Below are positions 3,296 to 20,335 of a DNA stretch of 64,000 nucleotides, piece by piece. This stretch comes from Propionispira arboris (GTDB lineage Bacteria; Bacillota; Negativicutes; Selenomonadales; Selenomonadaceae): NCBI RefSeq assembly GCF_900109225.1, contig NZ_FNZK01000008.1, positions 1 to 64,000 of the forward strand, in the 5' to 3' direction. A program made the position numbers and the translations under genes. Each line of letters begins with the position of its first letter. The stretch's first letter is position 1. The notes beneath the pieces are model-generated. The model was not told the origin of the DNA. It saw nothing but the letters and a program-made list of their open reading frames with translations, and did no database searches.

Positions 3296-3298
3296 GTA

Positions 3299-3345
3299 AT
3301 AAAATAACCGTCAGTATAGTAATATACGGGCGGTTATTTTATTTA
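3299..3345 (+). terminator. Terminator after flavoprotein gene
   Basis: AAAATAACCG and CGGTTATTTT pair around a loop of about 22 nt, followed by a T-rich stretch. Confidence 0.65.
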
Positions 3346-3435
3346 GTTTTTAAATAATAAAAATTAAGCAGGAAATGTTATTCATTTCTAGAAATTGTAT
3401 TAAGAAATACAGAAATATTATAAAGGTGGGATATC

Positions 3436-5103: not shown

Positions 5104-5957
5104 GTGACACTTCTAAGGAATTTTGCATGTATGAAACCGCTTGGTGCCCAGGGTGTGGGAATTTTGGTATTATTAAATGTTTAAAACAAGCACTGGAAGA
5201 GTTAAATAAAGATCCGCATGAAGTTCTTTTGATGGCTGGAATCGGGCAAGCAGCCAAAACACCACAGTATCTTAAAACCAATAGTTTTTCAGGTCTTCAT
5301 GGTAGATCCTTGCCAGCAGCTATTGCAGCAAAAATTGCCAATAACAATCTGACGATTGTGGTGAATACCGGTGAAGGTGATTCCTATGGTGAAGGTGGAA
5401 ACCATTTTATTCACAATATCAGAAGAAATGTTGATATTTCACATTTCGTTCATGACAATCAAGTTTATGGCTTAACGAAGGGGCAGGCTTCGCCAACATC
5501 ATCAGAAGGTTTCGTGACTGGGGTACAGACAGAAGGCAGCATGAATACACCGTTTAATCCACTGATGATGGCCATTGCAGCTGGGGCTGGATTTGTGGCC
5601 AGGTCTTTTAGTGGTGATCCGGTACAGCTTGTTGAGCTTATGAAAAAAGCTATTTTGTATAAAGGGTATGCTTTAGTAGATATATTACAGCCGTGTGTTA
5701 CCTTTAATAAAATCAATACATTTGCTTATTACAAAAAGCGGGTTTATCATTTAGATGAAAGTTATGATCCACATGATAAAATGGCGGCCATTCAAAAAGC
5801 CTTGGAATTTGGCGACAAAATTCCTACGGGCATTATTTATCAGGAACAAAAACAGACTTTTTATGATAAAAATAAAGTTTTATCTACGGCTATCCCATTA
5901 TGTGAGCAAAAACTCGATCCCTCTTTGCTTGAAAAATATAGTCAGGAATTTATTTGA
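5100..5957 (+). CDS. korB: 2-oxoacid:ferredoxin oxidoreductase beta subunit (TPP-binding)
   Basis: Partner of the preceding gene, translationally coupled by an ATGA overlap. The N-terminal TAWCPGCGNFGI supplies cluster-proximal cysteines, and the thiamine-diphosphate/Mg site is seen as GEGDSYGEGGNH and HDNQVYGLTKGQASPTS. The C-terminus holds another conserved Cys (LQPCVTFN). Length of 285 aa is normal for KorB. No separate delta ferredoxin subunit is encoded nearby, so electrons probably go to soluble ferredoxin. A terminator follows at 6001. Confidence 0.9.
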   Translation: MSDTSKEFCMYETAWCPGCGNFGIIKCLKQALEELNKDPHEVLLMAGIGQAAKTPQYLKTNSFSGLHGRSLPAAIAAKIANNNLTIVVNTGEGDSYGEGGNHFIHNIRRNVDISHFVHDNQVYGLTKGQASPTSSEGFVTGVQTEGSMNTPFNPLMMAIAAGAGFVARSFSGDPVQLVELMKKAILYKGYALVDILQPCVTFNKINTFAYYKKRVYHLDESYDPHDKMAAIQKALEFGDKIPTGIIYQEQKQTFYDKNKVLSTAIPLCEQKLDPSLLEKYSQEFI

Positions 5958-6000
5958 AAAACAAAATACTCAATCTGATTTTCAATCAATTTATATAAAA

Positions 6001-6038
6001 AAGATGAATTCCATTGGCGCTGGAATTCATCTTTTTTT
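6001..6038. terminator. Terminator between korB and deoR-like gene
   Basis: AAGATGAATTCCA and TGGAATTCATCTT pair perfectly around a 7-nt loop with a following T-run. It serves the + strand gene korB. Confidence 0.9.
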
Positions 6039-6045
6039 ATGATAA

Positions 6046-6807
6046 TTAAACAAGAAAAACTTCAATGCCCAGTTTTTTGATTTTTTCAATCATCTCTGGA
6101 TCGGCATCTTTATCGGTTACAATTGTATCGATTTCGCGAGGTGCGGCTATTGTCATAAAAGAACTTTCACCTAGTTTTGTATGGTCAACGACCAGAACGA
6201 CTCTCGTAGCCTGTTTCACCAGAATCCGTTTTGTTTCCGTATCATCAATATCTGGATTTGTTGCGCCGCGACTGATATCAAATGCTGCCGAACCGAGGAA
6301 TAATACATCAATTTTAAATTCGCGCATAAATCGGCTGGTCATTTGTCCAGAAAACCCCTGTGTTTTTTCTTTGAAAATTCCAGGGACTGTAATCAGTTTG
6401 ATGTCTTTTACGGTACTTAGTATATTAATAACAGGCAAAGAATTTGTCATGACAACAATATTTTTCTTTTGTGAAAGCGCTTCGGCAAGTTCTTTTGTTG
6501 TAGAGCCACAGTCGATAAAAACGGCAGAGCCCTCACTAATTAAATTCACACAAAAATTGGCGATTCGATTTTTTTCTTTTTGTAAGTGTTCTTCTTTAAA
6601 AGACAAATTATGTATAAATATAGAGCCTCGATTGAAAGTAGCACCGCCATGGATTAATGTTACACTGCCCTGATCAGAAAAAAATTTTAAATCTCGACGA
6701 ATTGTCATGGAAGAAACATTATATAATGCAGCTAGTTCGAGTATATTGACGGAACCGTTTGTTTTTAAACATTCTAAAATTTCTTTACGGCGGGTATTTG
6801 TTTTCAT
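6046..6807 (-). CDS. DeoR/GlpR-family transcriptional repressor
   Basis: 253 aa. The N-terminal DeoR helix-turn-helix (RRKEILECLKTNGSVNILEL, then VSSMTIRRDLKFF and the signature IHGGATF) is followed by the DeoR sensor domain with FIDCGSTTKELAEAL and FLGSAAFDISRGATNPD. That domain binds a sugar phosphate and resembles ribose-5-phosphate isomerase. The only divergent neighbour is the EIIA-like gene at 7097, whose leader carries repeated GTAACAAAAAA motifs typical of DeoR operators. The regulator therefore probably controls that gene and itself. Sugar specificity is not evident. Confidence 0.88.
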   Translation of the reverse strand: MKTNTRRKEILECLKTNGSVNILELAALYNVSSMTIRRDLKFFSDQGSVTLIHGGATFNRGSIFIHNLSFKEEHLQKEKNRIANFCVNLISEGSAVFIDCGSTTKELAEALSQKKNIVVMTNSLPVINILSTVKDIKLITVPGIFKEKTQGFSGQMTSRFMREFKIDVLFLGSAAFDISRGATNPDIDDTETKRILVKQATRVVLVVDHTKLGESSFMTIAAPREIDTIVTDKDADPEMIEKIKKLGIEVFLV

Positions 6808-6969
6808 ATAATTTCTCCATTTTCTATTTAGTACTTATAATATAAAGTTTTTCACTACTTTTGTCAATTTAAAATGTTAATATTTTGTTATTTTAACTAC
6901 TTTATCCTATTTATTGTAACAAAAAAACAGATAAAATCATCTTAAATAACATTTTTACATAAAATAGTG

Positions 6970-6999
6970 TTGACTTGTTATTGCATTGCTAGCTATAAT
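6970..6999 (+). promoter_or_regulatory. Sigma-70 promoter for the EIIA-like gene
   Basis: TTGACT (6970-6975), an 18-nt spacer and TATAAT (6994-6999) lie about 100 nt upstream of ATG 7097. Confidence 0.7.
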
Positions 7000-7017
7000 T
7001 GATTTTATAGAAATAAA

Positions 7018-7066
7018 GTAACAAAAAATGTTAAAACAATTTTACGGGAGAAACATTTTTTGTTGC
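7018..7066. promoter_or_regulatory. Inverted repeat in leader of EIIA-like gene (probable DeoR operator)
   Basis: GTAACAAAAAATGTT (7018-7032) and AACATTTTTTGTTGC (7052-7066) pair at 14 of 15 positions, just downstream of the promoter. A further GTAACAAAAAA occurs near 6916. Repeats of this kind suit binding by the divergent DeoR protein. A role as an RNA hairpin is also possible. Confidence 0.55.
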
Positions 7067-7096
7067 TTACATCAATAGGGTGAGGAGTGGAAATTT

Positions 7097-7531
7097 ATGA
7101 AATTACTACTTGTATCAAATGGAAGTTTAGCTCAGGGCTTGTATATGGCGATGGAACATTTTTATTATAAACCGGATATTGATTATACTATTTTGCGCGA
7201 TTCTGATAAAAAAGAATATATTGCGGAGATAGAAGCCTATATGAAGAAAAATTGTATGGAGGATATCTTGGTTTTGTGTGATGCATATGGAAGTACTGCT
7301 TTTAATGAGATTGTTGTTTTAATAAACAAGCTAGAACGAACGAAATCGGTAGGTGTGATTTGCGGGATGAATTTGCCGATGGTGTTTAAGATTTATGGAT
7401 TAAAAGATATGTGGAGTTTGACTAGTATCAAATCTTTTTACAAAAATTCCGAAAAACAGGGCGTTATTGTTTATGCACCGAAAGTAAAAAAGGATTGTAA
7501 ATTTCTTTTTAAAATAAATGTACCAATTTAA
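7097..7531 (+). CDS. PTS EIIA (mannose-family)-like protein lacking the active-site His
   Basis: 144 aa. The order of motifs follows the mannose/sorbose-type EIIA domain: LLLVSNGSLAQGL at the N-terminus (family: VSHG-LA-GL), LVLCDAYGSTAFNE (family: D-GG-TP-N) and VICGMNLPMVFKI (family: GVNLPML). The histidine that takes the phosphate from HPr in this family is Asn8 here (codon AAT). The following Gly-Thr-Pro is also degenerate (GSTAF). No EIIB, EIIC or EIID of this family is nearby. It is therefore likely a non-phosphorylatable sensor or regulator, or a decaying orphan. Expression probably answers to the divergent DeoR repressor. Confidence 0.7.
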   Translation: MKLLLVSNGSLAQGLYMAMEHFYYKPDIDYTILRDSDKKEYIAEIEAYMKKNCMEDILVLCDAYGSTAFNEIVVLINKLERTKSVGVICGMNLPMVFKIYGLKDMWSLTSIKSFYKNSEKQGVIVYAPKVKKDCKFLFKINVPI

Positions 7532-7661
7532 TGGTTGCAACTGGAAAAATTTATTTGTTTATAGACCCTGTAGTACAATAAGGAAAAAAGATATTGCATG
7601 ATACAAAACTGTATTGATACGACTTGCAAAGTCACAGCCATTTAAAGGATGATAATACTGC

Positions 7662-7708
7662 AAAAAACTCCCAGTTCAATAGGGTAAGCCTATTGCTGGG
7701 AGTTTTTT
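7662..7708. terminator. Bidirectional terminator
   Basis: AAAAAACTCCCAG and CTGGGAGTTTTTT flank an inner CAATAG/CTATTG pair. It is strong in both directions and serves the EIIA-like gene and perhaps the MFS gene. Confidence 0.9.
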
Positions 7709-7768
7709 GTCAGAGGTATTCTGTTTATAGAATATGAGGCTTTTAAAAATTAATATTTGGTCTGTCGT

Positions 7769-9115
7769 TTAAGTAGTTGGAAGTTCCACGGTTGTTTGTT
7801 CAGGTTGCTTTTTTGTAGTTGCATCAATTTTAATGAGCTTTTGGGGAATGAGTATAGTTAATACTCCCGCTAGAATTGCAAAACCAGCTAATACATACAT
7901 GCTGCAGTCGATGGACCCAGTTAAGTCCTTTAAATAACCAACGGCATAAGGTCCAACGAAGCCACCAAGATTTCCGACAGAATTAATTAAAGCAATACCA
8001 ACAGCGGCGGTTGCTTCTGATAAAAATGAACTTGGCAATGTCCAAAAACTGCCAGCAAAGCCGTAAATACCGGCGGTTGTAAATGTAATCTAAAATAAAC
8101 TCCAGACTATATTATGTGTCATTGTTAACGCAAAAAGTCCAATCGCAGAAATTGCAATAGGCAAGCCTATATGGTAACGCCGTTCCATTGTTTTATCTGA
8201 ATGACGAGCAACTACAATCATTGAAATTACACCAATAAAGTATGGAATTGTTGAAATTAGACCAACACTTGTATTGGATAAGGATTGTCCCAAGGATTTT
8301 ATCAACTGTGGCATCCACATACTTAATCCATACATTGCACAAACATAACCAAACCATATGATAGAAAGATGCCATACCCGGCCATTTTTTAAGACTTCCC
8401 ACATCGATGAATTTGTTTTTGTTTCTTTGGCTTCACGTTCAATGCGTAATTGATTGATGAGCCAATTTTTTTCTGCAATGGTTAAAAACTTTGCTTGCTC
8501 AGGACGATCAACAAGATAAAATAATGTTGCGATGCCACAAATTATAGCAGGAATACCTTCGATGATAAATAACCACCGCCATCCTTCTAAACCCCAAAGC
8601 TGGAAGTTATCCATAATCCAAGTCGAAAGTGGTGCAGTAATAATATTATTTAATGCCATACCAGTCATAAAAAAAGCGAGGGTTTTTCCCATATACTTAG
8701 CGGGAAACCATAAGGTTAGATATAAAATCATACCCGGATAAAAACCGGCTTCTGCTATACCTAATAAGACACGCATAACACCTAATTGTGTTGCTGTCTG
8801 AATGAAGCCCGTTGCAACGGTAACAAGTCCCCAAGTCATTAGAATTCGAGCAATCCAAAGGCGACATCCGACTTTATGCATCATTACATTACTCGGAATT
8901 TCAAAAAAGAAATAAGCAATAAAAAACACACCAGCAATCAGACCAAAGGTAGTGGAAGAGATATTTAAGGCTTGATTCATTTCTAAAGCAGCGAAACTAA
9001 TATTTACTCGGTCCATCATTGAGATTACATATAAGATAAAGAGAAAGGGAATAAGGCGTAACCGTAATTTTTGGATTACCAGGTTTTCGTTAACAAAAGC
9101 TTCTTTTTCTAACAT
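7769..9115 (-). pseudogene. MFS anion:cation symporter (ACS family) interrupted by an in-frame amber codon
   Basis: Reading leftward from ATG 9115 (AAGGAGAT upstream), the protein begins with a cytosolic segment and TM1 LIPFLFILYVISMMDRVNISFA, the ACS-family start. It then runs through GIAEAGFYPGMILYLTLWFP to residue 341, where a TAG occupies 8090-8092. The same frame continues without further stops to 7769, giving GIALINSVGNLGGFVGPYAV, the typical ACS C-terminal motif. The total would be 448 residues, normal for the family. The gene is thus full length except for one nonsense codon within a TM segment. ACS members import organic acid anions such as tartrate, galactonate or phthalate. It diverges from the transketolase operon and was probably its carrier. 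Confidence 0.85.
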
Positions 9116-9202
9116 AATTAAATCTCCTTCACATAATGAAAATTACAAAAATTCAGATAATAATCAAGACAAATAAAATAAAGGTTGTTAGACAATAGCA
9201 CT

Positions 9203-9223
9203 AAACATTAGACATCAGACGTT
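9203..9223. promoter_or_regulatory. Putative FadR-type regulator site (MFS side)
   Basis: A 21-bp motif beginning AAACATTAGACATCAGACG is nearly repeated at 9390-9410 (18 of 21 identical). Within it ACAT/ACGT recurs every 7 bp. It lies about 90 bp before the MFS start codon. Confidence 0.5.
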
Positions 9224-9354
9224 AAACTTATTTCAGTATATTTTATTAAAAACGAGATGTCAATATAAATTTATTGAATATTTACTGTATTTGGCTTTCC
9301 GAAAAAAACGTCTAAATAATTAACAGAAAATTATTTTATTTCAGATACAAGCTA

Positions 9355-9383
9355 TTGCATATTCTGAAAAGTCGTGCTATCAT
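9355..9383 (+). promoter_or_regulatory. Promoter of transketolase operon
   Basis: TTGCAT (9355-9360), 17-nt spacer, TATCAT (9378-9383). The second copy of the 21-bp motif starts 7 nt downstream. The regulator gene at 12213 has a very similar promoter. Confidence 0.65.
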
Positions 9384-9389
9384 AACATC

Positions 9390-9410
9390 AAACATTAAAC
9401 ATCATACGTT
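9390..9410. promoter_or_regulatory. Putative FadR-type regulator site (transketolase side)
   Basis: Begins AAACATTAAACATCATACG, with ACAT(T/C)A units at 7-bp steps. It sits over the expected transcription start, the position expected for repression. The likely binder is the GntR/FCD protein encoded at 12213. Confidence 0.55.
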
Positions 9411-9453
9411 TACCTATTAGGACAAAGTAATAGAAAGATTGGAGTGTTATGTT

Positions 9454-10281
9454 ATGAATGTAGAGAATGACATAAAAAAATTGCAGACCATATCGGATCA
9501 TATACGATTGGATATTATGAAAATGGTTTATGAAGCAAAAGATGGACATCCGGGGCCAGCTTTTTCCATAGCTGATCTAATTACAACACTATATTTTAAA
9601 GAAATGAAGATTGATCCGCAAAATCCTCGCTGGGAAGATAGAGATCGCTTTATTTTGTCAAAAGGACACGCTTGCCCGGCACTCTATTCAGCTTTGGCGC
9701 GTAAAGGATATTTTTCAATGGATGAATTGCATGGTTTACGCAAATTGGGATCTATGCTGCAAGGGCATCCTGATATGAATAAAACGCCGGGGATTGATAT
9801 TACCTCAGGATCATTAGGTAATGGCTTATCAATGGCTGTTGGAATGGCTATTGCTGCTAAATATCGCAAAAAATCCTATTATACTTATGTTGCTATGGGG
9901 GATGGTGAAATTCAAGAAGGATTAGTTTGGGAAGCGGCTATGTGTGCCAGTAAATATAAGCTGAATAATCTTATTGCCTTTGTGGATCATAATGGATGGC
10001 AAAGTGGCGGCAGCATTCATGATGTTAGTGGTTTATTACCAGTACTGCCAAAGTGGCAAGCTTTTAATTGGGATTGTCAGGTAATAGATGGTCATGATTT
10101 TGAACAGATTATTCAGGCGATTGCGCAGGCAAAAAAAAGTACGGATAAGCCGTCAATGATTATTTTAAAAACAATTAAAGGCAAAGGGTTATCGTTTATG
10201 GAAAATGATAATTCTTGGCATAAACGAGTTCCTACAGCGGAACAAATGGAACAAGCAATAACCGTATTGGGAGGAGAGTAA
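9454..10281 (+). CDS. Split transketolase, N-terminal (TPP-binding) subunit
   Basis: About 275 aa, equal to the first third of a standard transketolase. It has HIRLDIMKMVYEAKDGHPGPAFS, then SKGHACPALY and GHPDMNKTPGIDITSGSLGN, and the TPP/Mg motif GDGEIQEGLVWEAAM. It forms an active enzyme only with the next gene, as in TktA/B or AptA/B pairs. Transketolases move a two-carbon ketol unit from a ketose to an aldose phosphate. The ATG at 9454 has GGAG 9 nt upstream; the alternative TTG at 9439 is less likely. Neighbours suggest a dedicated catabolic role rather than the pentose-phosphate pathway. Confidence 0.9.
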   Translation: MNVENDIKKLQTISDHIRLDIMKMVYEAKDGHPGPAFSIADLITTLYFKEMKIDPQNPRWEDRDRFILSKGHACPALYSALARKGYFSMDELHGLRKLGSMLQGHPDMNKTPGIDITSGSLGNGLSMAVGMAIAAKYRKKSYYTYVAMGDGEIQEGLVWEAAMCASKYKLNNLIAFVDHNGWQSGGSIHDVSGLLPVLPKWQAFNWDCQVIDGHDFEQIIQAIAQAKKSTDKPSMIILKTIKGKGLSFMENDNSWHKRVPTAEQMEQAITVLGGE

Positions 10282-10282
10282 G

Positions 10283-11236
10283 ATGGTGGAATATAAAGGA
10301 ACGCGAGAAGCTTTTACACAAGCGATTACAGAATTAGCTGCTGAAAATGAACAAGTCGTTTTTGTGTCGGCGGATTCATTAAAAGCCATGCGCGCAACTT
10401 CTTTTGCTGAAAAATATCCAGATCGTTATATTGAAGTTGGTATTGCAGAACAAAATTCAGTGGGAGTGTCAGCTGGTTTAGCAAGCGCGGGGCTCATGCC
10501 TTTTATTGGTACTTATGCTGGGTTTATCACTATGCGTGCCTGTGAGCAGGTTCGTACTTTTGTAGCGTATCCGCACTTAAATGTAAAGCTTGTAGGCATT
10601 AATGGTGGTATTTTTTCAGGGGAGCGAGAAGGCGTCACTCATCAATTTTTTGAAGATTTGGCAATTATGCGGGCTATGCCAGATGTGACGATTTTAGTTC
10701 CTGCCGATGCTCATCAGATGTATCATGCTGTTAAAGCCGCAGCTTTGATTGACGGTCCTGTGTATATTCGGGCTGGCAGTGGTCGTGAGCATCTTGTATA
10801 TGAGGCAGATACACCTTTTGAAGTGGGAAAAATTCGTGTATTAAAAAAATATGGTAATGATGTTGCCTTGTTTGCAAATGGATTTATTTTAAATCGTGCA
10901 GTTGAAGCGGCACGGATTTTAAATGAATCCAATATCAGAGTCACGTTAGTTGATGTCCCAACTTTAAAACCGTTAGATGAATCTGGTATTCAAGCAATTT
11001 TAGCAGATTGTAAGGCTGCTGTAACGGTGGAAGACCATAATGTTATTGGTGGTTTGGGGGATGTGATTTCGATGGTAAGTACAAAATCCTATCCAGTATT
11101 TATGGAACGAGTCGGATTACAAGATGTTTTTCCTAGCAGCGGAGGTCCGGAAGAGGTCTTAGATCGTTATGGTATTTCTATTCAAGATATTGTTAATGCC
11201 GTAAAAAATGTATGTAAAATGAAAAGGGGTATTTAG
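10283..11236 (+). CDS. Split transketolase, C-terminal (pyrimidine-binding) subunit
   Basis: 317 aa. Carries the pyrimidine-binding domain with the catalytic glutamate in RYIEVGIAEQNSVGVSAGLA, followed by AYPHLNVKLVGINGGIFSGEREGVTHQ and the C-terminal transketolase domain (LVDVPTLKPLDESG, VTVEDHNVIGGLG). It starts 1 nt after the N-subunit stop with a GGAGGAG ribosome site. Sequence style (GINGGIFSGEREGVTHQFFEDLAIMR) is that of two-gene transketolases such as the apulose-4-phosphate enzyme. Donor specificity is not readable directly. Confidence 0.9.
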   Translation: MVEYKGTREAFTQAITELAAENEQVVFVSADSLKAMRATSFAEKYPDRYIEVGIAEQNSVGVSAGLASAGLMPFIGTYAGFITMRACEQVRTFVAYPHLNVKLVGINGGIFSGEREGVTHQFFEDLAIMRAMPDVTILVPADAHQMYHAVKAAALIDGPVYIRAGSGREHLVYEADTPFEVGKIRVLKKYGNDVALFANGFILNRAVEAARILNESNIRVTLVDVPTLKPLDESGIQAILADCKAAVTVEDHNVIGGLGDVISMVSTKSYPVFMERVGLQDVFPSSGGPEEVLDRYGISIQDIVNAVKNVCKMKRGI

Positions 11237-11238
11237 TA

Positions 11239-12093
11239 ATGCGTGAAAAAATTATAGTAAGTGTAATTGGTGCAGGCGGAAAAATGGGAACGCGTGTCAG
11301 TAATAATTTGGCAAAACATACAGACGATATTACGATGTATTTGTGTGAAAATTCACCACAAGGTGTTGATGGCATTCAGAAACGCGGCTTTGAGGTTATT
11401 GCATCTCAAGAAGCTGTGCCTAAAAGTGATGTTATTATTTTAGCTGTACCAGATACTTTGATAAATATTGTTTCACAAGATATCGTGAAAATGATGAGAC
11501 CGGATACGACATTGATGATACTTGATCCAGCAGCCGCTGTGGCCAAAGAACTGGCTTTACGCGATGACTGTACATTTGCTGTAGCACATCCATGTCATCC
11601 ATCTTATTTCCTAGATCAAGATACACCAGAAGCGAGACAAGATTATTTTGGTGGTGTTGCCGGTAAACAGGATATTGTTATGGCTAAAATTCAAGGTTCT
11701 GATGATAATTTTGCTAAAGCCAGAAAAATTGGTGAAATTATGTTTGCACCGGTTATGCATAGTTATGTAATGGGGGTCCGGGATATTGCTTTCTTAGAAC
11801 CAACTCTTGTAGAAATTTTAGGTGCTACCACACTTTATGCGATGGCAGAAACAGTAAAAGAGGCAGAAAGACGCGGAATTCCAAGAGCGGCTGCAGAATC
11901 ATTTTTATCAGGACATATCTATAATTTAAGTGCTAACTTCCTCGGTAAATTGAATGCAAAAGTATCGGATGCCTGTATGGTAGCAATTGAATTGGGGAAT
12001 CAATTGGTTTTGAGAGAGGATTGGAAAAGAATTTGGGATGATGATGTATTAGATAAAAGTATACAAACAATGCTTCATCCTACTAAGAAATAA
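11239..12093 (+). CDS. ApnO-like NAD-dependent oxidoreductase (phosphogluconate dehydrogenase C-terminal family)
   Basis: 284 aa. A Rossmann start VSVIGAGGKMGTRVSNNL is followed by ILAVPDTLI, AVAHPCHPSYF and DYFGGVAGKQDIVMAKIQG, then a helical C-terminus (FLEPTLVEILGATTLYAMAE, RRGIPRAAAESFLSGH). The HPCHP and FGG-A-KQ-IV signature is, from memory, that of D-apionate oxidoisomerase (ApnO) and relatives, which oxidise a branched sugar acid to 3-oxo-isoapionate with rearrangement. It follows the transketolase by 2 nt and is surely in the operon. Family membership is fairly firm; the exact substrate is inference from gene context. Confidence 0.75.
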   Translation: MREKIIVSVIGAGGKMGTRVSNNLAKHTDDITMYLCENSPQGVDGIQKRGFEVIASQEAVPKSDVIILAVPDTLINIVSQDIVKMMRPDTTLMILDPAAAVAKELALRDDCTFAVAHPCHPSYFLDQDTPEARQDYFGGVAGKQDIVMAKIQGSDDNFAKARKIGEIMFAPVMHSYVMGVRDIAFLEPTLVEILGATTLYAMAETVKEAERRGIPRAAAESFLSGHIYNLSANFLGKLNAKVSDACMVAIELGNQLVLREDWKRIWDDDVLDKSIQTMLHPTKK

Positions 12094-12139
12094 TAAAATT
12101 TAAATTTTTTCATAGACTATGTACACCTATATGAATTGA

Positions 12140-12168
12140 TTGCATGCTGAAAATGTTGATGTTATAAT
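12140..12168 (+). promoter_or_regulatory. Promoter of gntR/fadR-like gene
   Basis: TTGCAT (12140-12145), 17-nt spacer, TATAAT (12163-12168), about 45 nt before ATG 12213. Confidence 0.65.
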
Positions 12169-12212
12169 GGAATATTAGTATATGCAGAAAAATCAATGAG
12201 GGAGCACTATCT

Positions 12213-12962
12213 ATGGGATTAGAAGATAAAAATGCGAGTCTAGCTAATATATTTGAACCTAAGGAACGGGAATCTTCCGTAAATTATGTGATCAATAATA
12301 TAAAGGATTCATTATTGTCACAACAAATCATGCCAGGAGATAAATTACCTTCTGAAATGGAATTAGGAAAATTGCTGTCTGTAAGCAGAGGTTCTATTCG
12401 TGAGGCTATGAAAATTTTAGCAGCATTTGGTATCATTGAAATAAGGCGTGGTGATGGTACCTATGTTACTAAAGATTTTGAAGGAAAAGTTATTTTTGAT
12501 CCTTTGTTATTTAGTTTTATATTATCGCAGCCAGCATTTGATGATCTTAAAGAATTACGCCTTATGCTAGAAAAGTATATTGTTCGCCTTGCGATCAAAA
12601 ATGAAACGGATGAAGATTTGGCTAACTTAAAAACGTGTAATCTTGAATTGAAAAATTTAAAACACAATCAAAACGATATGAATAATGAAGAAGTAAATGA
12701 GTTATTAGAGTGTGATCTAAAATTTCATTATATGTTGGCAAAAATGGCTAAAAACAAATTGATTGAAAGAATTTACTTATTTGTTTTAGAATATTTCAAA
12801 CCATATATCAAAAAGAGTATGCAAAATCATGTATATTTTACATTTAAATCAAGTGCTCCGCATGAGCAGATTTTAAGTGCTATGGAAAAACGAGATGTTG
12901 CGCTGGCAGAGATTGCAATTGAAGATTCCGTTGAAATTTGGGGAAAACTTATGTTCAAATAG
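12213..12962 (+). CDS. GntR-family (FadR/FCD) transcriptional regulator
   Basis: 249 aa. The N-terminal GntR winged helix reads MPGDKLPSEMELGKLLSVSR, then SIREAMKILAAFGIIEIRRGDGTYV. The C-terminal FCD ligand domain has LRLMLEKYIVRLAIK and FHYMLAKMAKN, plus a late HEQI-AM segment, the places that usually hold metal ligands and bind small organic acids. It sits inside the sugar-acid cluster, so it likely represses the divergent promoters at 9.1-9.4 kb until the substrate or an intermediate binds. GAGGGA precedes ATG 12213. Confidence 0.88.
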   Translation: MGLEDKNASLANIFEPKERESSVNYVINNIKDSLLSQQIMPGDKLPSEMELGKLLSVSRGSIREAMKILAAFGIIEIRRGDGTYVTKDFEGKVIFDPLLFSFILSQPAFDDLKELRLMLEKYIVRLAIKNETDEDLANLKTCNLELKNLKHNQNDMNNEEVNELLECDLKFHYMLAKMAKNKLIERIYLFVLEYFKPYIKKSMQNHVYFTFKSSAPHEQILSAMEKRDVALAEIAIEDSVEIWGKLMFK

Positions 12963-12974
12963 ATTTTAATTTGA

Positions 12975-13031
12975 CGATACTTTAGCGTACTTGCGATAGA
13001 AGGTTCTTTTTCTATCGCAAGGGAAGTATCG
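12975..13031. repeat. Nested perfect hairpin between gntR and dehydrogenase gene
   Basis: The outer arms CGATACTT and AAGTATCG enclose the inner arms CTTGCGATAGAA and TTCTATCGCAAG, all perfectly paired. A 7-nt bulge lies on the left side, a 1-2 nt bulge on the right, and the loop is 8 nt. No T-run follows, so it is not a standard terminator. It could be an mRNA processing or stabilising element between gntR and the two downstream genes. Confidence 0.6.
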
Positions 13032-13092
13032 AAACAGCCATCAACAAAAATAATATTATCGGAATATTCTAAATTTATAAGGGGGACTATAA

Positions 13093-14064
13093 ATGAAAGC
13101 CGTTGTTTTAGATGGGTATTCTTTAAATCCAGGAGATTTAAGCTGGAAAGCTTTAGAGGATATATGTGAAACAGTGATCTATGATAGAACATGTTACGAT
13201 ACAGCTAATTTAGAACTCATTACGCAAAGAATTGGTGATGCTGAAATAGTATATACAAATAAGACACCTTTGCCACAAGCGGTCATTAATGCAGCACCAA
13301 AGTTGAAATTTATTGGCGTTTTGGCAACTGGTTATAATGTGGTGGACATTGCTGCGGCACAAAAACGAAAAATTACGGTTACAAATATCCCAACCTATGG
13401 TACGGATTCTGTGGCGCAAATGGCAATCGCTTTATTATTGGAAATGTGTCATCACATTGGAGAGCATAATCGCTCTGTGCAAACGGGCGAATGGGAACAT
13501 AATGCGGATTGGTGTTTTTGGAATTATCCATTGATTGAGTTAGCTGGAAAAACAATCGGAATTATAGGTTTTGGGCGGATCGGACAAACGGTAGGGCGAA
13601 TCGCTCAATCTTTGGGCATGAAGGTGCTGGCCTTCGATAAATATAAGATGCTCGAATTGGAAAGCGATACATTAAAATACGCTGCGTTAGATGAAATTTT
13701 TGCCGCAGCGGATGTGATCAGTCTGCATTGTCCTTTATTTAAAGAAACGGAAGGTATGATTAATACAATAAATATCAATAAAATGAAACATGGTGTAATG
13801 ATTATTAACAATTCGCGTGGAGGTTTAATTGTAGAACAAGATTTGGCACAGGCATTAGAAAATGACCAAGTCGCTGGTGCTGCTCTTGATGTAGTTTCTA
13901 CAGAGCCGATTCGCCATGATAATCCATTGCTTGGTGCAAAAAATTGTATTATTACGCCGCACATATCATGGGCACCAAAAGAATCGAGACAAAGACTGCT
14001 GAATATCGCAATTGATAATTTACGTCACTTTATCGATGAAAAGCCAATCAATGTTGTAAGTTAA
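13093..14064 (+). CDS. D-isomer 2-hydroxyacid dehydrogenase, hydroxypyruvate/glyoxylate reductase type
   Basis: 323 aa. The dinucleotide site TIGIIGFGRIGQTVGRIAQS and the catalytic set are visible: Arg in NNSRGGLIVEQDL, Glu in DVVSTEPI and His in ITPHISWAPKESR. The Trp in HISWAP and the LATGYNVVDIAAA segment are usual in glycerate dehydrogenase/hydroxypyruvate reductase members. It is followed after 19 nt by a glycerate kinase, which makes reduction of hydroxypyruvate to D-glycerate the most economical role. Other 2-oxoacids remain possible. Confidence 0.85.
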   Translation: MKAVVLDGYSLNPGDLSWKALEDICETVIYDRTCYDTANLELITQRIGDAEIVYTNKTPLPQAVINAAPKLKFIGVLATGYNVVDIAAAQKRKITVTNIPTYGTDSVAQMAIALLLEMCHHIGEHNRSVQTGEWEHNADWCFWNYPLIELAGKTIGIIGFGRIGQTVGRIAQSLGMKVLAFDKYKMLELESDTLKYAALDEIFAAADVISLHCPLFKETEGMINTININKMKHGVMIINNSRGGLIVEQDLAQALENDQVAGAALDVVSTEPIRHDNPLLGAKNCIITPHISWAPKESRQRLLNIAIDNLRHFIDEKPINVVS

Positions 14065-14083
14065 TACTGAAAGAGGTGTTGAA

Positions 14084-15250
14084 ATGCATATTGTTATAGC
14101 ACCAGATTCATATAAAGGCAGTTTAACGGCTATTGAAGCAGCCCGGGCCATTCAAAAAGGAATAAAAGAAGTCTTTCCCACTGCAAAAATTACTTCTTTA
14201 CCGATTGCGGATGGTGGAGAAGGAACTGTTAAGGCCTTAGTTTACTCAATGAAGGGTGAATTACAGCACAATCATGTTCTTGATCCATTAGGAAAGACCG
14301 TGTTGGCTGAATGGGGAATTCTTGATACAAAAACAGCTGTCATTGAGATGGCTGAAGCATCAGGTTTATTGTTGGTTCCATTAAGTAAAAGAAATCCCCT
14401 GATTACAAGTACCTATGGTACAGGGCAGCTGATCAAAGCTGCTCTCGACCAAGGTATGCGGAAAATCATCATCGGTTTGGGCGGGAGTGCTACCAATGAT
14501 GGTGGTGCTGGTATGGCGCAAGCACTAGGGGTTCGTTTTCTTGATCGAAGCAGAAAAGAATTGCCGAATGGTGGTGGCTATTTACAGGATTTAGCTTCGA
14601 TTGATTTGACTAATTTAGATAAACGCATAAAAGATACGGAATTTATTCTTGCTAGTGATGTGAAAAATCCATTATGTGGTAAAACAGGAGCAAGTGTTGT
14701 TTATGGACCGCAAAAAGGGGCGGATGCTTCGATGGTTGATCAGTTGGATAAAGCTTTATTGCATTATGCAGCCATTGCCGAAAAAGCAACTGGCCAGATT
14801 GTAGCAAATACAAATGGGGCAGGAGCTGCCGGTGGATTAGGGGCTGGGTTGATGCTTTTTTGTAATGCAACATTTAGACAAGGAATACAAATGGTTTTAG
14901 AATTGGTGCAGGCTGAACGCTTATTTTCTGAGGCGAACCTTATTTTTACGGGTGAAGGGTCGACGGATTTTCAAACTGTTTATGGGAAAGCACCAGTTGG
15001 CATTGGCAGTATCGCTAAAAAATATAATGTACCAGTCATATGTGTATCGGGAAGTTTGGGTAAAGCGTATGATGAAATATTTAAATATGGCATAACAGCT
15101 GCAGAAAGTATTGTTTCTAGTCCTGAGAGCCTGGCCTATTGCATGGAAAATGCTGCATCGTTACTGCAGGATACGGCAAAAAGAATTTGCTTAATCTTAA
15201 AAATAGGGGCTACATTAAAATGTGAGGGGATAAGAGTTATTCCAGTATAG
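14084..15250 (+). CDS. Glycerate kinase (GarK/GlxK family, 2-phosphoglycerate-forming)
   Basis: 388 aa, full length for the type-1 family. It opens with IVIAPDSYKGSLTAIEAARA, has the LPIADGGEGTV segment, then the glycine-rich IIGLGGSATNDGGAGMAQAL and a C-terminal GEGSTDFQTVYGKAP motif. These enzymes phosphorylate D-glycerate with ATP, feeding 2-phosphoglycerate to enolase. It directly follows the hydroxypyruvate reductase-like gene and closes the cluster before a strong terminator at 15286. Confidence 0.93.
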   Translation: MHIVIAPDSYKGSLTAIEAARAIQKGIKEVFPTAKITSLPIADGGEGTVKALVYSMKGELQHNHVLDPLGKTVLAEWGILDTKTAVIEMAEASGLLLVPLSKRNPLITSTYGTGQLIKAALDQGMRKIIIGLGGSATNDGGAGMAQALGVRFLDRSRKELPNGGGYLQDLASIDLTNLDKRIKDTEFILASDVKNPLCGKTGASVVYGPQKGADASMVDQLDKALLHYAAIAEKATGQIVANTNGAGAAGGLGAGLMLFCNATFRQGIQMVLELVQAERLFSEANLIFTGEGSTDFQTVYGKAPVGIGSIAKKYNVPVICVSGSLGKAYDEIFKYGITAAESIVSSPESLAYCMENAASLLQDTAKRICLILKIGATLKCEGIRVIPV

Positions 15251-15285
15251 GTGTGATAGTTTTATAAAATAAAATGATTCAATAT

Positions 15286-15338
15286 AAAAATAGCTTTCTT
15301 ATGATACAATACATATCATAAGAAAAGCTATTTTTTTA
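15286..15338 (+). terminator. Terminator after glycerate kinase
   Basis: The stem AAATAGCTTTCTTATGAT / ATCATAAGAAAAGCTATTT (with one bulge) is followed by a T-run. It ends the 9-15 kb cluster. Confidence 0.85.
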
Positions 15339-15409
15339 ATACGCTGAAGTTATCGATTTGTAAGCAGTAGTATTTATATATAAGAGAATATTGAAGAATG
15401 GAGCACGTG

Positions 15410-16231
15410 ATGGAAACGGTAATAAGTATCATTGTTTTAAGTGTAATGGAATTGGTTTATCTTTTTGGGACTATAATTATCATAGGTTTTTTGCTGGGCT
15501 GGTTGGAGACTATAGCTGCTCAATGGGCCTATAAAGCATTTGGGAAAACGGGTATTTTATTGACGTCATGTATTGGAACCTCCATACATGAAACAGGGCA
15601 TGCTTTGATGTGCCTTTTGTTTGGTCATAAAATTATCGCTATCAAGTTTTTTGATTTGAATCCGCAAAATGAAACGTTAGGTTATGTCCAGCATAGTTTT
15701 GATAAACATAACTTGTATCAAAACATGGGAAATTTTTTTATCAGTTTAGGTCCTATATTTAGCGGCAGTGCCGCAATTTTATTCTTTATGTATTGGCTTG
15801 AACCATATACTTTTTCTGCACTGCGGCAAATGTCAGTATCCGTGCCTGCTGTCCATACAGTAACAGATCTTTTAATCTGGTCGGGACATTCTATGTCGAT
15901 TGTATATTATGGATTGTGGCATAGTCCAAGTTTTGGTTCTTTAAAATATTGTGTGTTTTTAGTGCTGGCAATCTGCATATCTTCCCATATTGCTTTAAGT
16001 AAGATAGATATTAAAAATGCAATGGCGGGTTTGAGTGTGACTTTTTTGTGTGTGGTAGTCGGCAATTTTATTGCAGCTTTTTTTGGTATTGATACATTAT
16101 ATTATGTGTTGGAAGCGGCAAATTATAATGTTTATTTACTATCAATCTTATCGGTATCGTTGTTGTTTTCGCTATTTACAGCAATGGTTATGGGCGTGTG
16201 TGCAGGTTTTTTCAAAATACATAGAACTTGA
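15410..16231 (+). CDS. Membrane protein with HExGH zinc motif, M50 metallopeptidase-like
   Basis: About 273 aa with five or six hydrophobic segments. Residues around 60-64 read SIHETGHALMCLLFGHKI, the HExxH zinc motif placed in a membrane helix as in M50/site-2 proteases. A later segment NFFISLGPIFSGSAAI occupies the place of the usual second motif (N-P-DG) but lacks its Asp, so catalysis is uncertain. ATG 15410 follows TGGAG by 6 nt; an ATG at 15398 is also in frame but has no ribosome site. It is monocistronic. A substrate cannot be named. Confidence 0.6.
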   Translation: METVISIIVLSVMELVYLFGTIIIIGFLLGWLETIAAQWAYKAFGKTGILLTSCIGTSIHETGHALMCLLFGHKIIAIKFFDLNPQNETLGYVQHSFDKHNLYQNMGNFFISLGPIFSGSAAILFFMYWLEPYTFSALRQMSVSVPAVHTVTDLLIWSGHSMSIVYYGLWHSPSFGSLKYCVFLVLAICISSHIALSKIDIKNAMAGLSVTFLCVVVGNFIAAFFGIDTLYYVLEAANYNVYLLSILSVSLLFSLFTAMVMGVCAGFFKIHRT

Positions 16232-16387
16232 TTTTTGGGTTTATTTTCTAAAATGTGATGGAAAAACAATACAAATAGATTGACCTTCTGATTTGGGGGA
16301 TATAAACTAAAATAGTGAAATGAATTGTGTGAATGAACCTATTCAATAGTTGGTGAATATTCTGTCTAGCTGGAAGGAGAAAATTTT

Positions 16388-16933
16388 ATGAAATTAATCG
16401 ATAATATTCAAGATTGGATTTGCAGTTTAGCGCTTTCTCTAGCGATTGCGTTATTCATCAATATCTTTCTTGTACAGCATATGGTGGTTGAGGGGCATTC
16501 GATGGATCCGACCTTACATGATCATCAGCATTTAATTATATCCAAGTTTTCGCATAGCATTAAGAAAATGCCGGATTATGGGGATATTGTTACAATCGAT
16601 AGCCGAGTTTCGCGGGAACGAAGCTTAAAAGACGATTTGTCTGAGCCGATAACGAACTTGGTTAATCAGCAGCAATATGTTTTTGTTAAACGGGTTATTG
16701 GTAAACCGGGGGATGTTCTTGAATTTAAAGACAGTCAGGTGTATCGAAATGGTACAAAACTCGATGAATCTTATATTTTGGAAACTATGCGTGTGATGGT
16801 GGATCAGAAAATCACGGTTCCGGCCGATTCAATATTTGTTATGGGTGATAATCGCAATAACAGTATGGATAGTCGTATGATTGGAGCGGTCCCGCTTAAT
16901 CATGTATTAGGTGTTATGGTTGCTAAAATATAA
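16388..16933 (+). CDS. lepB: Signal peptidase I
   Basis: 181 aa, single N-terminal membrane anchor (about residues 12-29), then the S26 catalytic domain. The nucleophile Ser38 is in GHSMDPTL, the general base Lys101 in YVFVKRVIGKPGD, and the box MGDNRNNSMDSRMIG follows. It removes signal peptides on the outer face of the inner membrane. The strong ribosome site GGAAGGAG precedes the ATG. The short form is like Gram-positive SipS rather than proteobacterial LepB. It may be one of several paralogs. Confidence 0.95.
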   Translation: MKLIDNIQDWICSLALSLAIALFINIFLVQHMVVEGHSMDPTLHDHQHLIISKFSHSIKKMPDYGDIVTIDSRVSRERSLKDDLSEPITNLVNQQQYVFVKRVIGKPGDVLEFKDSQVYRNGTKLDESYILETMRVMVDQKITVPADSIFVMGDNRNNSMDSRMIGAVPLNHVLGVMVAKI

Positions 16934-17044
16934 AATAAAGGGTGTGGCAGGCTTTTTTTGCTTAAGGATTATGAAACTGGTATAGTGTGGCGCACCGGGG
17001 CTTTGCCTAATTAAAATATTAAACAAGAGAAAGAGGGATTTTGA

Positions 17045-17362
17045 GTGGATATATTCGAGAATGTTTCTATCGTAAAAAAAGCCAATGTATATTTTGATGG
17101 AAAAGTAACAAGTCGTACGGTTCTTTTTGATAATGGAGAAAAGAAGACTTTGGGGATCATGATGCCTGGTGAATATGAATTTGCCACGGCGGATAAGGAA
17201 CATATGGAAATTTTAGCGGGAACTATGGAGGTTTTATTGCCAAACCGTGAAGATTGGATTAGCATTGAAGCAGGGCAAACATTTGAAGTGCAAGCACATT
17301 CAAAATTTAAGTTAGTCGTCCAGGATATAGCAGATTATTGCTGTTCTTATATCAAAGAATAA
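17045..17362 (+). CDS. ppnP: Pyrimidine/purine nucleoside phosphorylase PpnP (DUF1255, cupin fold)
   Basis: 105 aa beta-barrel (cupin) protein that phosphorolyses several nucleosides to base and ribose-1-phosphate. Family marks are the N-terminal [20 protein letters not shown], the central [20 protein letters not shown] and [13 protein letters not shown], and the C-terminal [13 protein letters not shown]. It starts at GTG 17045 behind AGAGGGA. Length equals that of E. coli PpnP. It stands alone. Confidence 0.92.
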
Positions 17363-17434
17363 ATATATTGTTTTTAGCATATATATATGTTTATTTATGC
17401 TGAAGTTATGTATTATAAATATAGTTGAAATAAC

Positions 17435-17476
17435 GAAAAACCTTGTATTACTTTACTGAGTAATGCAGGTTTTTTC
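17435..17476 (+). terminator. Terminator after ppnP
   Basis: AAAAACCTTGTATTAC and GTAATGCAGGTTTTTT pair with one mismatch around a short loop. Confidence 0.75.
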
Positions 17477-17601
17477 TTCTTCTGCGAGAAGAATTATAGA
17501 TAAAGGTTTAAATAAAAATAGTTCAACGGAAAATGGTTTTGCAAAATGATAGCAAAAGACTATTAAACAAATAAAAGTAGTATAATTCTGGAGGTTTATG
17601 A

Positions 17602-18177
17602 ATGGATTTTTCAGGTAAGAAACAGGCAGCAGTATTTCTTGATCGGGATGGCACGATTAATCTGGACAAAGGGTATTTTTATTTGCCGGAAGAGTTTGAG
17701 TTTGAGCAAGGTTCAGTTGAAGCGATTCGTTTGCTTAATCAGGCTGGTTATAAAGTGTTTGTCATTTCCAATCAATCTGGTATTGCAAGAGGCTGTTTTA
17801 CCGAAGCACAGGTGGATCATTTGCATCAATGGATGAATGAGGAACTAGCAAAATCGGATGCACATATTGATGCTTTTTATTATTGTCCGCATCATGCCGA
17901 ACTGGGGGTTGGTTCTTATAAGAAAATTTGCGATTGTCGAAAACCAGCACCAGGATTACTGCTGAAGGCGGGACGAGAATGGAATATAGATATGAAACAT
18001 TCCTATATGGTGGGAGACCATAATAGTGATATTGGTGCGGGTACTGCCGCAGGCGTTCAACCTTTTTTTGTTCGTACAGGACATGGAAAACAAGAAGAAA
18101 AATTACTTGCATCTAATGTTTTGCGAGCCAATAATTTGTATGAAGTTGTAAAAAAGTATATACTTTTTTCAAATTAA
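17602..18177 (+). CDS. gmhB: D-glycero-D-manno-heptose 1,7-bisphosphate phosphatase-like HAD enzyme
   Basis: 191 aa HAD phosphatase. The nucleophile motif FLDRDGTIN sits at the N-terminus, motif II is VISNQSGIARG, and the zinc-binding loop runs from YYCPHHAELG to ICDCRKPAPGLL, with late acidic motif VGDHNSDIGAGTAAG. The zinc loop and CRKP define the GmhB/HisB-N group. In diderm bacteria GmhB makes heptose for lipopolysaccharide, which fits an outer-membrane-bearing host. No other heptose genes are adjacent. Confidence 0.88.
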   Translation: MDFSGKKQAAVFLDRDGTINLDKGYFYLPEEFEFEQGSVEAIRLLNQAGYKVFVISNQSGIARGCFTEAQVDHLHQWMNEELAKSDAHIDAFYYCPHHAELGVGSYKKICDCRKPAPGLLLKAGREWNIDMKHSYMVGDHNSDIGAGTAAGVQPFFVRTGHGKQEEKLLASNVLRANNLYEVVKKYILFSN

Positions 18178-18218
18178 ATTTGCCTGTCAGCAGACAGACG
18201 TTATAAAACTTGGTATTT

Positions 18219-18255
18219 AAAAATCACTCTTATTGGAAAAAGAGTGATTTTTTTA
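18219..18255 (+). terminator. Terminator after gmhB
   Basis: AAAAATCACTCTT and AAGAGTGATTTTTTT form a stem with a short loop. It separates gmhB from the marR operator region. Confidence 0.85.
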
Positions 18256-18258
18256 GTT

Positions 18259-18298
18259 ATATCATATTTTTGTTTACGTGGAAACAAAAATATGATAT
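18259..18298. promoter_or_regulatory. Perfect 17-bp inverted repeat, MarR operator 1
   Basis: ATATCATATTTTTGTTT (18259-18275) and AAACAAAAATATGATAT (18282-18298) are exact reverse complements around 6 nt. The core TTGTTT-N6-AAACAA recurs at 18306. It lies where the marR promoter must be, so it is probably an autoregulatory operator. Confidence 0.75.
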
Positions 18299-18305
18299 TC
18301 TAATA

Positions 18306-18323
18306 TTGTTTCCATGTAAACAA
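18306..18323. promoter_or_regulatory. MarR operator 2
   Basis: TTGTTTCCATGTAAACAA is an imperfect palindrome nearly identical to the reverse complement of the core of operator 1 (17 of 18). Centre-to-centre spacing is 36 bp. It overlaps the marR ribosome binding site. Confidence 0.7.
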
Positions 18324-18335
18324 AGGAGGTGCGAT

Positions 18336-18788
18336 ATGAGCAATGCAATAAACATTATCCATTCGTTTACTAGAATACAAGAACGGGCGGATATCTTTAA
18401 ACATCATCGGGAAGAGATTTTTGCAGGACTTAATTTGGCTGAAGTACATTGTATTGCTAAAATTGGTTCGATGGAATATGCCAATGTAACAAAAGTAGCC
18501 CATGCAATGCATATGACAAGAGGTGCTATAAGCAAAATAAGTAAAAAATTACTAAATAAGCAGCTAGTTGAGAGTTATCAAAAACCGGAGAATAATAAAG
18601 AAGTTTATTTTTGCCTGACTACGAGCGGTAAATTGATTTATGATGAACATAAAGTATGCCATGAACAGGCAAAATTAAGGAAACTAAAACTTTTGTCTAA
18701 CTATAGTGAAGCCGAGCAGATCGTGATTTTACGATTTTTAGAAGATATTAATCAACAGCAAGAACAGGGTTTACGTGAGGAAGCTTGA
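18336..18788 (+). CDS. MarR-family transcriptional regulator
   Basis: 150 aa. The winged helix is visible as NLAEVHCIAKIGSMEYANVT, then MHMTRGAISKISKKLLNKQL and the wing KEVYFCLTTSGKLIYDEH. The reading frame is open upstream to 18210, but AAAGGAGGT lies 5 nt before ATG 18336, which fixes the start. It precedes the exporter at 18809 by 20 nt in one operon, with two operators in front. It should repress both genes until an effector, perhaps the exported compound, binds. Confidence 0.9.
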   Translation: MSNAINIIHSFTRIQERADIFKHHREEIFAGLNLAEVHCIAKIGSMEYANVTKVAHAMHMTRGAISKISKKLLNKQLVESYQKPENNKEVYFCLTTSGKLIYDEHKVCHEQAKLRKLKLLSNYSEAEQIVILRFLEDINQQQEQGLREEA

Positions 18789-18808
18789 GGGTATAGGGGG
18801 TTAAGGAC

Positions 18809-19984: not shown

Positions 19985-20335
19985 AATATTGTAGTTTATT
20001 GTTGTAAGCCTGATGGCAAGTGGAATTTTTGGATAAGACTGGTTGAAAATTTAATAAGATTTTAATGAGAAAAATCGGGAGCAGATAGATGTTCCCGATT
20101 TTTTATGTGGCAAAATGAATTGGCTCTCATAAAGTAGACAGATGCTTTGCGAGCAGGTATGATCAAGGAATATATATATAGTTTTTTGAAAATTCAGTAT
20201 TCTAAAAATAAATAAACGGTTGTGGTAAATTTAGTATACTAAAAGGGGGTTGGTATTGTGGTAAAGTTTTGGTCTTTTGGGACTAACGCAAGGGTGTTAT
20301 GATGAATTTGTAAATAGAAACGGGAGGAAATTCAA
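19985..20335. other. Intergenic region: terminator plus palindrome before PRD regulator
   Basis: A hairpin AAAATCGGGA/TCCCGATTTT with T-run (20070-20105) ends the exporter operon. A perfect 14-bp palindrome TTTAGTATACTAAA lies at 20230-20243, about 95 bp before the regulator gene, and could be an operator. No gene is seen. Confidence 0.6.

Follow-up and report, generated by a model that had tools for sequence, protein, structure and literature searches.

Introduction

Apiose is found in the plant cell wall (RG-II) and in many plant glycosides (PMC11747546). Routes for the degradation of its oxidised form, D-apionate, have been described. In one route, ApnO acts first and is probably followed by OiaC, a decarboxylase of the xylose-isomerase family, with erythrulose kinase and isomerases likely to act further on (Carter et al. 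2018). In another route, ApnO is followed by OiaK and the RuBisCO-like OiaX/OiaT. The activities of the RuBisCO-like proteins are cited in PMC6302742, and the pathway genes are reported in PMC11747546. A split transketolase, AptAB, is known for D-apulose-4-phosphate, and its genes in E. coli SE15 are named in PMC13001218. The closest solved two-chain transketolase is that of Carboxydothermus hydrogenoformans (6yaj/6yak).

We analysed a stretch of 64,000 nucleotides from Propionispira arboris (contig NZ_FNZK01000008.1, positions 1 to 64,000), hereafter the window. It carries a gene set with an ApnO-like oxidoreductase and a split transketolase. The initial annotation proposed that the transketolase cuts 3-oxo-isoapionate and leaves hydroxypyruvate, which is converted to D-glycerate and 2-phosphoglycerate. 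We investigated whether the gene set is conserved and whether sequence evidence supports this route. No paper on a transketolase route for apionate was found, nor a description of how fermenting gut and sediment bacteria use the oxidised form of apiose, in literature searches in which most subscription papers could not be covered.

Results

Gene content of the cluster

Profile searches of the open reading frames confirmed the gene order and the families. TktN (9454-10281, + strand) matched Transketolase_N (PF00456, 1.2e-64), and a TTG start at 9439 is also possible. TktC (10283-11236, +) matched Transket_pyr and Transketolase_C (PF02779/PF02780). The oxidoreductase (11239-12093, +) showed KARI_N plus PGDH_C (PF16896, E 1.7e-57). 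It was followed by an FCD-family GntR regulator (12213-12962, +; PF00392, PF07729), for which the best NCBIfam hit was PRK03837 NanR with 104.9 bits, below cut-off. It is probably the regulator of the cluster. The D-2-hydroxyacid dehydrogenase (13093-14064, +) matched PF02826/PF00389, and its nearest solved chain was 5tx7. This is the proposed hydroxypyruvate reductase, although no NCBIfam equivalog passed its cut-off. The last gene was a glycerate kinase of the GlxK/GarK type (14084-15250, +; PF02595, 7.1e-149, 496 bits), with TIGR00045 above cut-off.

A divergent gene for an MFS organic-anion carrier (7769-9115, - strand; D-galactonate/HpaX-like) lies just outside the span 9116-15250 of the initial annotation. 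Its best NCBIfam hit was the D-galactonate transporter TIGR00893 (5.7e-79, below cut-off), and PF07690 was also matched. The initial annotation counted this carrier as part of the cluster. However, the gene has an in-frame stop at 8090 after 341 codons, and the frame is otherwise open to 7769. The matching frames of three relatives (loci L067, L002 and L003) stayed open for 465, 456 and 430 codons, respectively. In the divergent MFS/tkt promoter region, two copies of an operator-like direct repeat were found at 9199-9228 and 9384-9413. Two copies were present in 7 of 7 divergent regions examined, counted with up to three mismatches and without a shuffle control. The FCD regulator probably acts on these paired operators.

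Conservation of the module

The gene order is not due to chance. TktN and tktC (at least 45% identity, same strand, within 8 kb) lie beside the ApnO-like gene in 41 of 47 loci, whose record names span three phyla. The gap was under 400 bp in 38 of the 41. The module occurs in records named as Lachnospiraceae, Oscillospiraceae, Negativicutes and spirochaetes. A hydroxyacid dehydrogenase lies near 28 of 41 modules, and a glycerate kinase of either of two unrelated families near 10 of 41. The two families fit a conversion of hydroxypyruvate to D-glycerate. However, the dehydrogenase is absent near 13 of 41 modules, and near 8 of the 32 with at least 5 kb on both sides, and a glycerate kinase is absent near 31 of 41. 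Those genomes would need these steps from elsewhere. In some loci, Pfam showed ABC transporter parts and an amidohydrolase-family protein.

The 41 pairs of the transketolase tree were gathered through ApnO, and the tree alone cannot show that the clade never occurs without ApnO. An independent search of 200 genomes of the class was performed as a control. PF16896 matched 13 genomes, and tktC at E <= 1e-80 matched the same 13, in each with the main match next to ApnO. The threshold was chosen to lie between module-type matches and the paralogues seen in a previous search. One of the 13 genomes had a second, partial tktC match of 62% on another contig, away from ApnO. The phylum sample gave only the own genome (1 of 398).

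The split transketolase forms a separate clade

The 41 pairs formed one clade (SH-aLRT 100), apart from the AptAB/FGGY clade and from the paralogues of the own genome, which has two full-length and six split transketolases. The initial annotation compared the pair with AptAB. However, the pair is not AptAB by descent. In addition, no match to the FGGY apulose kinase AptK was found in the strips of the window (3001-20000) or of loci L002-L040, where matches under 60 bits were not shown. The proposed donor, an unphosphorylated keto acid, also differs from that of AptAB. In both cases, the split transketolase would cut at a tertiary carbon and leave a ketone.

The active site of TktC was altered at the positions equivalent to human H416 (Asn107), D424 (Glu116 plus a one-residue insert) and R474 (Ser166). 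Residues at these three positions were changed in 41 of 41 module proteins. AptAB has also changed the residues at the human H416 and D424 positions. In contrast, the C. hydrogenoformans enzyme has His, Asp and Arg at the three positions. A35 of TktC (human S345) was not taken as a specificity change, because other split transketolases also carry Ala there.

The oxidoreductase is predicted to be of the ApnO type

The structure model of the oxidoreductase (pLDDT 84) matched C. necator 5t57, with TM 0.88/0.90 and 41% identity. The next matches were 3c24 and then ketol-acid reductoisomerase-type enzymes. The chain 5t57 is most likely ApnO, and the TIM-barrel protein of the Pantoea ApnO locus is most likely OiaC (Carter et al. 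2018), but no NCBIfam model names either. Based on fold and sequence, the ApnO assignment appeared to hold. In an alignment of 25 ApnOs from the three context types, 33 positions were invariant, including H117, H120, E187, E192, H226 and D244. One locus (L099) was left out because its contig cuts the gene.

Proposed exchange of the second enzyme

Three proteobacterial homologues (70-72%; loci L009, L011 and L033) nested among the transketolase-linked ApnOs with support 95 and 99. They sit beside an OiaC-like gene and lack the module transketolase. Their OiaC-like proteins were 50-52% identical to the TIM-barrel protein of the Pantoea locus. The best-scoring tktC matches of their genomes were 37-41% identical, against 53-58% in the six other genomes searched. 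In plasmid loci, a split transketolase lay beside ApnO in 0 of 12 loci read, and 11 of 12 showed OiaC, OiaK or OiaX in the stretch. These 12 were picked by hand from 251 records for annotation and variety of organism, not at random. No match to OiaK or OiaX above 50 bits was found in L002-L040, in strips where matches under 55 bits were not shown, except the tetronate-type kinases of L009, L011 and L033. These results suggested that the transketolase replaces the known enzymes acting on 3-oxo-isoapionate.

In addition, a sugar-binding protein is shared with OiaK/OiaX- or OiaC-type loci at 47-50% (L055, L099 and L102), with L055 and L102 at 47-48% for the OiaK/OiaX route. A NanR-like FCD regulator is also common to that route. 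A lactonase-like protein is shared at 54-59% (L098 and L101). However, L014 (68% ApnO) showed no tkt, OiaC or OiaK, and L037 has a split pair of another lineage.

The initial annotation counted no step as missing. However, no clear apiose dehydrogenase or lactonase was found in this genome. The best match to a rhizobial ApsD-like protein was 29% over part of its length, and the best match to the clostridial lactonase-like protein had E 1.5e-4.

Discussion

Based on the above results, the route proposed in the initial annotation was supported. In the sequence tests that could be run, we found no different proven substrate for the clade of the oxidoreductase and no conserved pairing with a different sugar pathway. 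We consider the cluster a probable D-apionate catabolic operon, with a transketolase step that was not described in what we could read. The chemistry is inferred. In the proposed route, ApnO oxidises D-apionate with NAD+ and shifts a hydroxymethyl group, giving 3-oxo-isoapionate. TktN/TktC cuts the bond between the keto carbon and the tertiary carbon, moves the HOCH2-CO unit to an aldose, and releases hydroxypyruvate. The aldose is probably an aldose phosphate, although TktC has lost phosphate-site residues and it is unclear how such an acceptor would bind. The D-2-hydroxyacid dehydrogenase reduces hydroxypyruvate to D-glycerate, using up the NADH from the first step, and glycerate kinase makes 2-phosphoglycerate. 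The proposed route is redox-neutral.

It is more likely than not that this is a further route of D-apionate catabolism, found here mainly in genomes of anaerobes, in which a new transketolase family acts directly on the unphosphorylated branched keto acid. It would need neither a decarboxylase nor a RuBisCO-like protein, in contrast to what the known routes probably require. In comparison with the OiaC route, a split transketolase appears to take the place of OiaC, and a hydroxyacid dehydrogenase and glycerate kinase appear in place of the probable erythrulose kinase and isomerases. If right, this explains a conserved operon and gives an enzyme that makes hydroxypyruvate from a C5 acid. It would also add a transketolase family with a changed donor site, and show the same first enzyme feeding three different second steps.

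It is possible, but unlikely, that the true substrate is another branched or unusual sugar acid, such as an apionate stereoisomer or a related acid, with the same chemistry. The ApnO of the window was at most about 42% identical to the plasmid ApnOs. Transporters varied between MFS, TRAP and two kinds of ABC, and three loci carry a GH78-type rhamnosidase gene. However, the swap with the OiaC-like gene within the clade, the shared lactonase-like and sugar-binding proteins, and the 33 invariant positions were against this.

Degradation of a linear C4 acid is similarly doubtful. In this case, the oxidoreductase would make a 3-oxo-tetronate, the transketolase would leave glyoxylate, and the dehydrogenase would reduce it to glycolate. 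The dehydrogenase family covers glyoxylate as well as hydroxypyruvate reductases. The three proteobacterial loci also carry tetronate-type genes, which allow another substrate class there. These are a 3-oxo-tetronate kinase above cut-off in L009 and relatives of proteins tentatively labelled LtnD and OtnC. However, in L009, L011 and L033 the OiaC-like gene directly follows ApnO, and the tetronate genes lie further off. The glycerate kinases of two unrelated families near the modules and the resemblance of the oxidoreductase model to KARI-type enzymes, after its own family, were also against this reading.

An ordinary pentose-phosphate transketolase that happens to be co-transcribed is very unlikely, although transketolases may commonly accompany sugar operons and conserved histidines of the family are kept, because the 41 pairs form a separate clade, tktC marked the same 13 of 200 genomes as ApnO, the genome already has two full-length transketolases, and the three active-site positions are changed in 41 of 41.

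Gene organization and conservation of the module

The window was located in a 4.26 Mb genome in 40 contigs. The gene order was an MFS carrier on the minus strand from 9115, followed on the plus strand by tktN, tktC, a PGDH_C/KARI_N oxidoreductase, an FCD-GntR regulator, a D-2-hydroxyacid dehydrogenase and a PF02595 glycerate kinase. The gene list of the initial annotation, which had described a split transketolase, an ApnO-like oxidoreductase, a regulator, a dehydrogenase, a glycerate kinase and an MFS carrier, was right. The MFS frame (7769-9115, minus strand) had a single in-frame stop at 8090 and was otherwise open to 7769. In contrast, the matching frames of three related loci (L067, L002 and L003) were uninterrupted. 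Either the uptake gene of the strain is broken or the assembly has an error. A sequencing error cannot be excluded.

A scan of genome contigs was performed to determine whether the gene set was conserved. It gave 39 loci with relatives of 59-80% identity. A search of 200 genomes of the class showed that 13, including the genome of the window, contained the PF16896 family. Together with the window and seven non-duplicate loci from this search, 47 loci were obtained. tktN and tktC (at least 45% identity) were found on the same strand within 8 kb of ApnO in 41 of the 47 loci, and the gap was under 400 bp in 38 of the 41. These results showed that the gene set is a conserved module. Of the six other loci, L009, L011 and L033 had an OiaC-like gene instead, L014 had neither, L030 was a 3.2 kb contig, and L037 had a split pair of another lineage. 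L014 was a betaproteobacterial record with a 68% ApnO-like gene (8001-8846) but no tkt, OiaC or OiaK match, and its context was unexplained.

Relatives of the hydroxyacid dehydrogenase (at least 50% identity) were found near 28 of the 41 modules. A glycerate kinase was found near 10 of 41, with relatives of the PF02595 kinase in six and of the MOFRL/DUF4147 kinase in four. Pfam was run on one of each, and the rest were assigned by similarity. The carriers varied between MFS, TRAP, a ribose-type ABC system and a second ABC system. In three loci (L015, L020 and L029), the module was followed by a GH78-type alpha-L-rhamnosidase gene and a sugar ABC binding protein, which perhaps links it to plant glycans or glycosides. 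The PF16896 family was rare in the other samples. It was found in 1 of 398 genomes in the phylum sample, which was the genome of the window itself, in 6 of 391 in the class of the genome carrying L026, two of them loci already obtained, and in 3 of 274 in the class of the genome carrying L033, one already obtained.

Association of the transketolase with ApnO

Since the transketolase pairs had been gathered through ApnO, the 200 class genomes were searched with TktC alone. At E <= 1e-80, TktC matched 13 of 200 genomes, and these were the same 13 genomes that contained the PF16896 family. In each of them, the main match was located just beside the PF16896 match, at 50-82% identity outside the genome of the window. 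However, one genome of 73% completeness (G033) had a further partial tktC match of 62% on another contig, away from ApnO (C95:35877-36485).

A tree of 54 concatenated split transketolases was constructed to examine the relationship of the pairs. The 41 ApnO-linked pairs were placed in one clade with SH-aLRT 100. E. coli AptAB, a Rhizobium pair and a pair from the genome of the window (L082), each with an FGGY kinase in its locus, formed another clade (support 95). The AptAB genes of E. coli SE15 were located from PMC13001218. The four other split pairs of the same genome were placed outside the module clade. The tree was made by a quick method without bootstrap, and several of the outside rows were long-branched. 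The genome had nine matches to TktN, of which six were split, two were in full-length transketolases and one was weak. None of the five other split pairs (L079-L083) had a hydroxyacid-dehydrogenase or glycerate-kinase match in the stretch read. The pair in L082 (4643-7867, contig C39) was located beside an FGGY kinase 40% identical to E. coli AptK and a ribose-type ABC system, and it may be an apulose-type locus. In addition, a second lineage of split transketolase was observed next to the module in three Selenomonadales-type loci, L034 (308-2064), L036 (4352-6096) and L037 (6123-7879). In the case of L037, it was the only pair.

Active site of the transketolase

TktC was aligned with human transketolase to compare the active-site residues. 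R318 was kept in TktC (Arg8, 41 of 41). However, H416 was replaced by Asn107 (41 of 41), D424 by Glu116 with a one-residue Arg/Lys insert (41 of 41), and R474 by Ser166 (40 of 41, Asn in one). R318, S345, H416, D424 and R474 are listed among the active-site residues modelled for the human enzyme with xylulose-5-phosphate (PMC8016368), and R318, S345, H416 and R474 probably hold the phosphate. The three AptB-type sequences also had changes at H416 (N, S, S) and D424 (L, L, L). Both families would cut beside a tertiary carbon, so the shared loss might be consistent with this chemistry, although it also leaves open how a phosphorylated acceptor would bind.

Structure and conservation of the oxidoreductase

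The nearest solved chain by sequence was 5t57 of Cupriavidus necator, followed by 3c24. The predicted model (pLDDT 84) matched 5t57 at TM 0.88/0.90 and 41% identity, then 3c24, and then BurG and ketol-acid reductoisomerases at query TM 0.56-0.68 in the rows listed. 5t57 is probably ApnO. A plasmid locus of C. necator N-1 (L084) carried an ApnO 73% identical to a rhizobial one, beside OiaX- and OiaK-like genes. Over 25 ApnO rows from transketolase, OiaC and OiaK/OiaX contexts, 33 positions were invariant, including K15, D96, R108, H117, H120, D135, E187, E192, H226 and D244.

Enzymes found beside ApnO in other loci

Of 251 plasmid records with an ApnO-like match, 12 loci chosen by hand were read (L054, L055, L056, L084 and L104-L111). 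Eleven showed OiaC, OiaK or OiaX in the stretch of up to 7 kb on each side, and L056 showed none. In the case of L108, the kinase was about 4 kb off, and in L111 only an OiaX end was in the stretch. None of the 12 had a split transketolase, whereas L054 had a full-length transketolase gene about 5.6 kb away. OiaK in L055 and OiaX in L110 and L111 were named in the records, and the others were assigned by similarity. Two genome loci (L102 and L103) also carried OiaK- and OiaX-like genes.

The following arrangement was observed in L009, L011 and L033, whose records are named Accumulibacter, 'Proteobacteria bacterium' and Propionivibrio. The ApnO of these loci was 70-72% identical to that of the window and nested inside the transketolase-linked ApnO clade (support 95 and 99). 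It was followed by a TIM-barrel protein 50-52% identical to that of the Pantoea locus, where ApnO stands with a dihydroxyacetone-kinase-family gene, a triose-phosphate-isomerase-like gene and RpiB. From this setting, this protein is probably OiaC (Carter et al. 2018), although no NCBIfam model names it. The best-scoring tktC matches of the three genomes were 38, 37 and 41%, compared to 53-58% in the six other genomes searched. These results suggested that the same first enzyme might feed either a decarboxylase or the transketolase, which is expected if both act on 3-oxo-isoapionate. However, the three loci also had tetronate-type genes further along, which argues against this.

Shared upstream genes

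Five module loci (L008, L012, L022, L027 and L031) carried a ribose-type ABC system and an Amidohydro_2 protein, which was taken for a lactonase. Pfam was run on that of L008. Relatives of this protein (54-59%) were found in two (L098 and L101) of four clostridial ApnO plus OiaC-like loci, and L101 also had an ApsD-like dehydrogenase (39%). The sugar-binding protein was 47-50% identical to those of L055, L099 and L102. However, the OiaC-like matches in the four clostridial loci (L098-L101) were weak (25-33%), and their ApnOs were only 30-42% identical to that of the window. In the genome of the window, no good ApsD or lactonase match was found, so it more likely takes up apionate than apiose. 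In another module locus (L028), a Gfo/Idh/MocA-type protein and an SDR were found beside the module (9110-10889), and these are possible apiose oxidation genes.

Proposed route

The structure of 3-oxo-isoapionate should be HOOC-C(OH)(CH2OH)-CO-CH2OH. A transketolase cut beside the ketone, with an acceptor that was not identified, would give HOOC-CO-CH2OH, hydroxypyruvate. A D-specific reductase would give D-glycerate and use the NADH of the first step, and the kinase would make phosphoglycerate. In contrast, a linear tetronate would give glyoxylate, which leaves the two kinds of glycerate kinase unexplained. Three apionate routes, by OiaC, OiaX and OiaT, appear to be known. No transketolase route for apionate was found in the literature searched. 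The route proposed here would differ from these three in its transketolase step.

Regulation

Two copies of an AACATCAAACGTCTAACG-like repeat, with a period of about 7 bases, were found in the divergent MFS/tkt region of the window (9199-9228 and 9384-9413). Two copies were also found in the six other MFS-type loci examined, although two of the seven (L006 and L074) were close relatives and the repeats were counted without a shuffle control. These repeats may be the operators of the FCD regulator.
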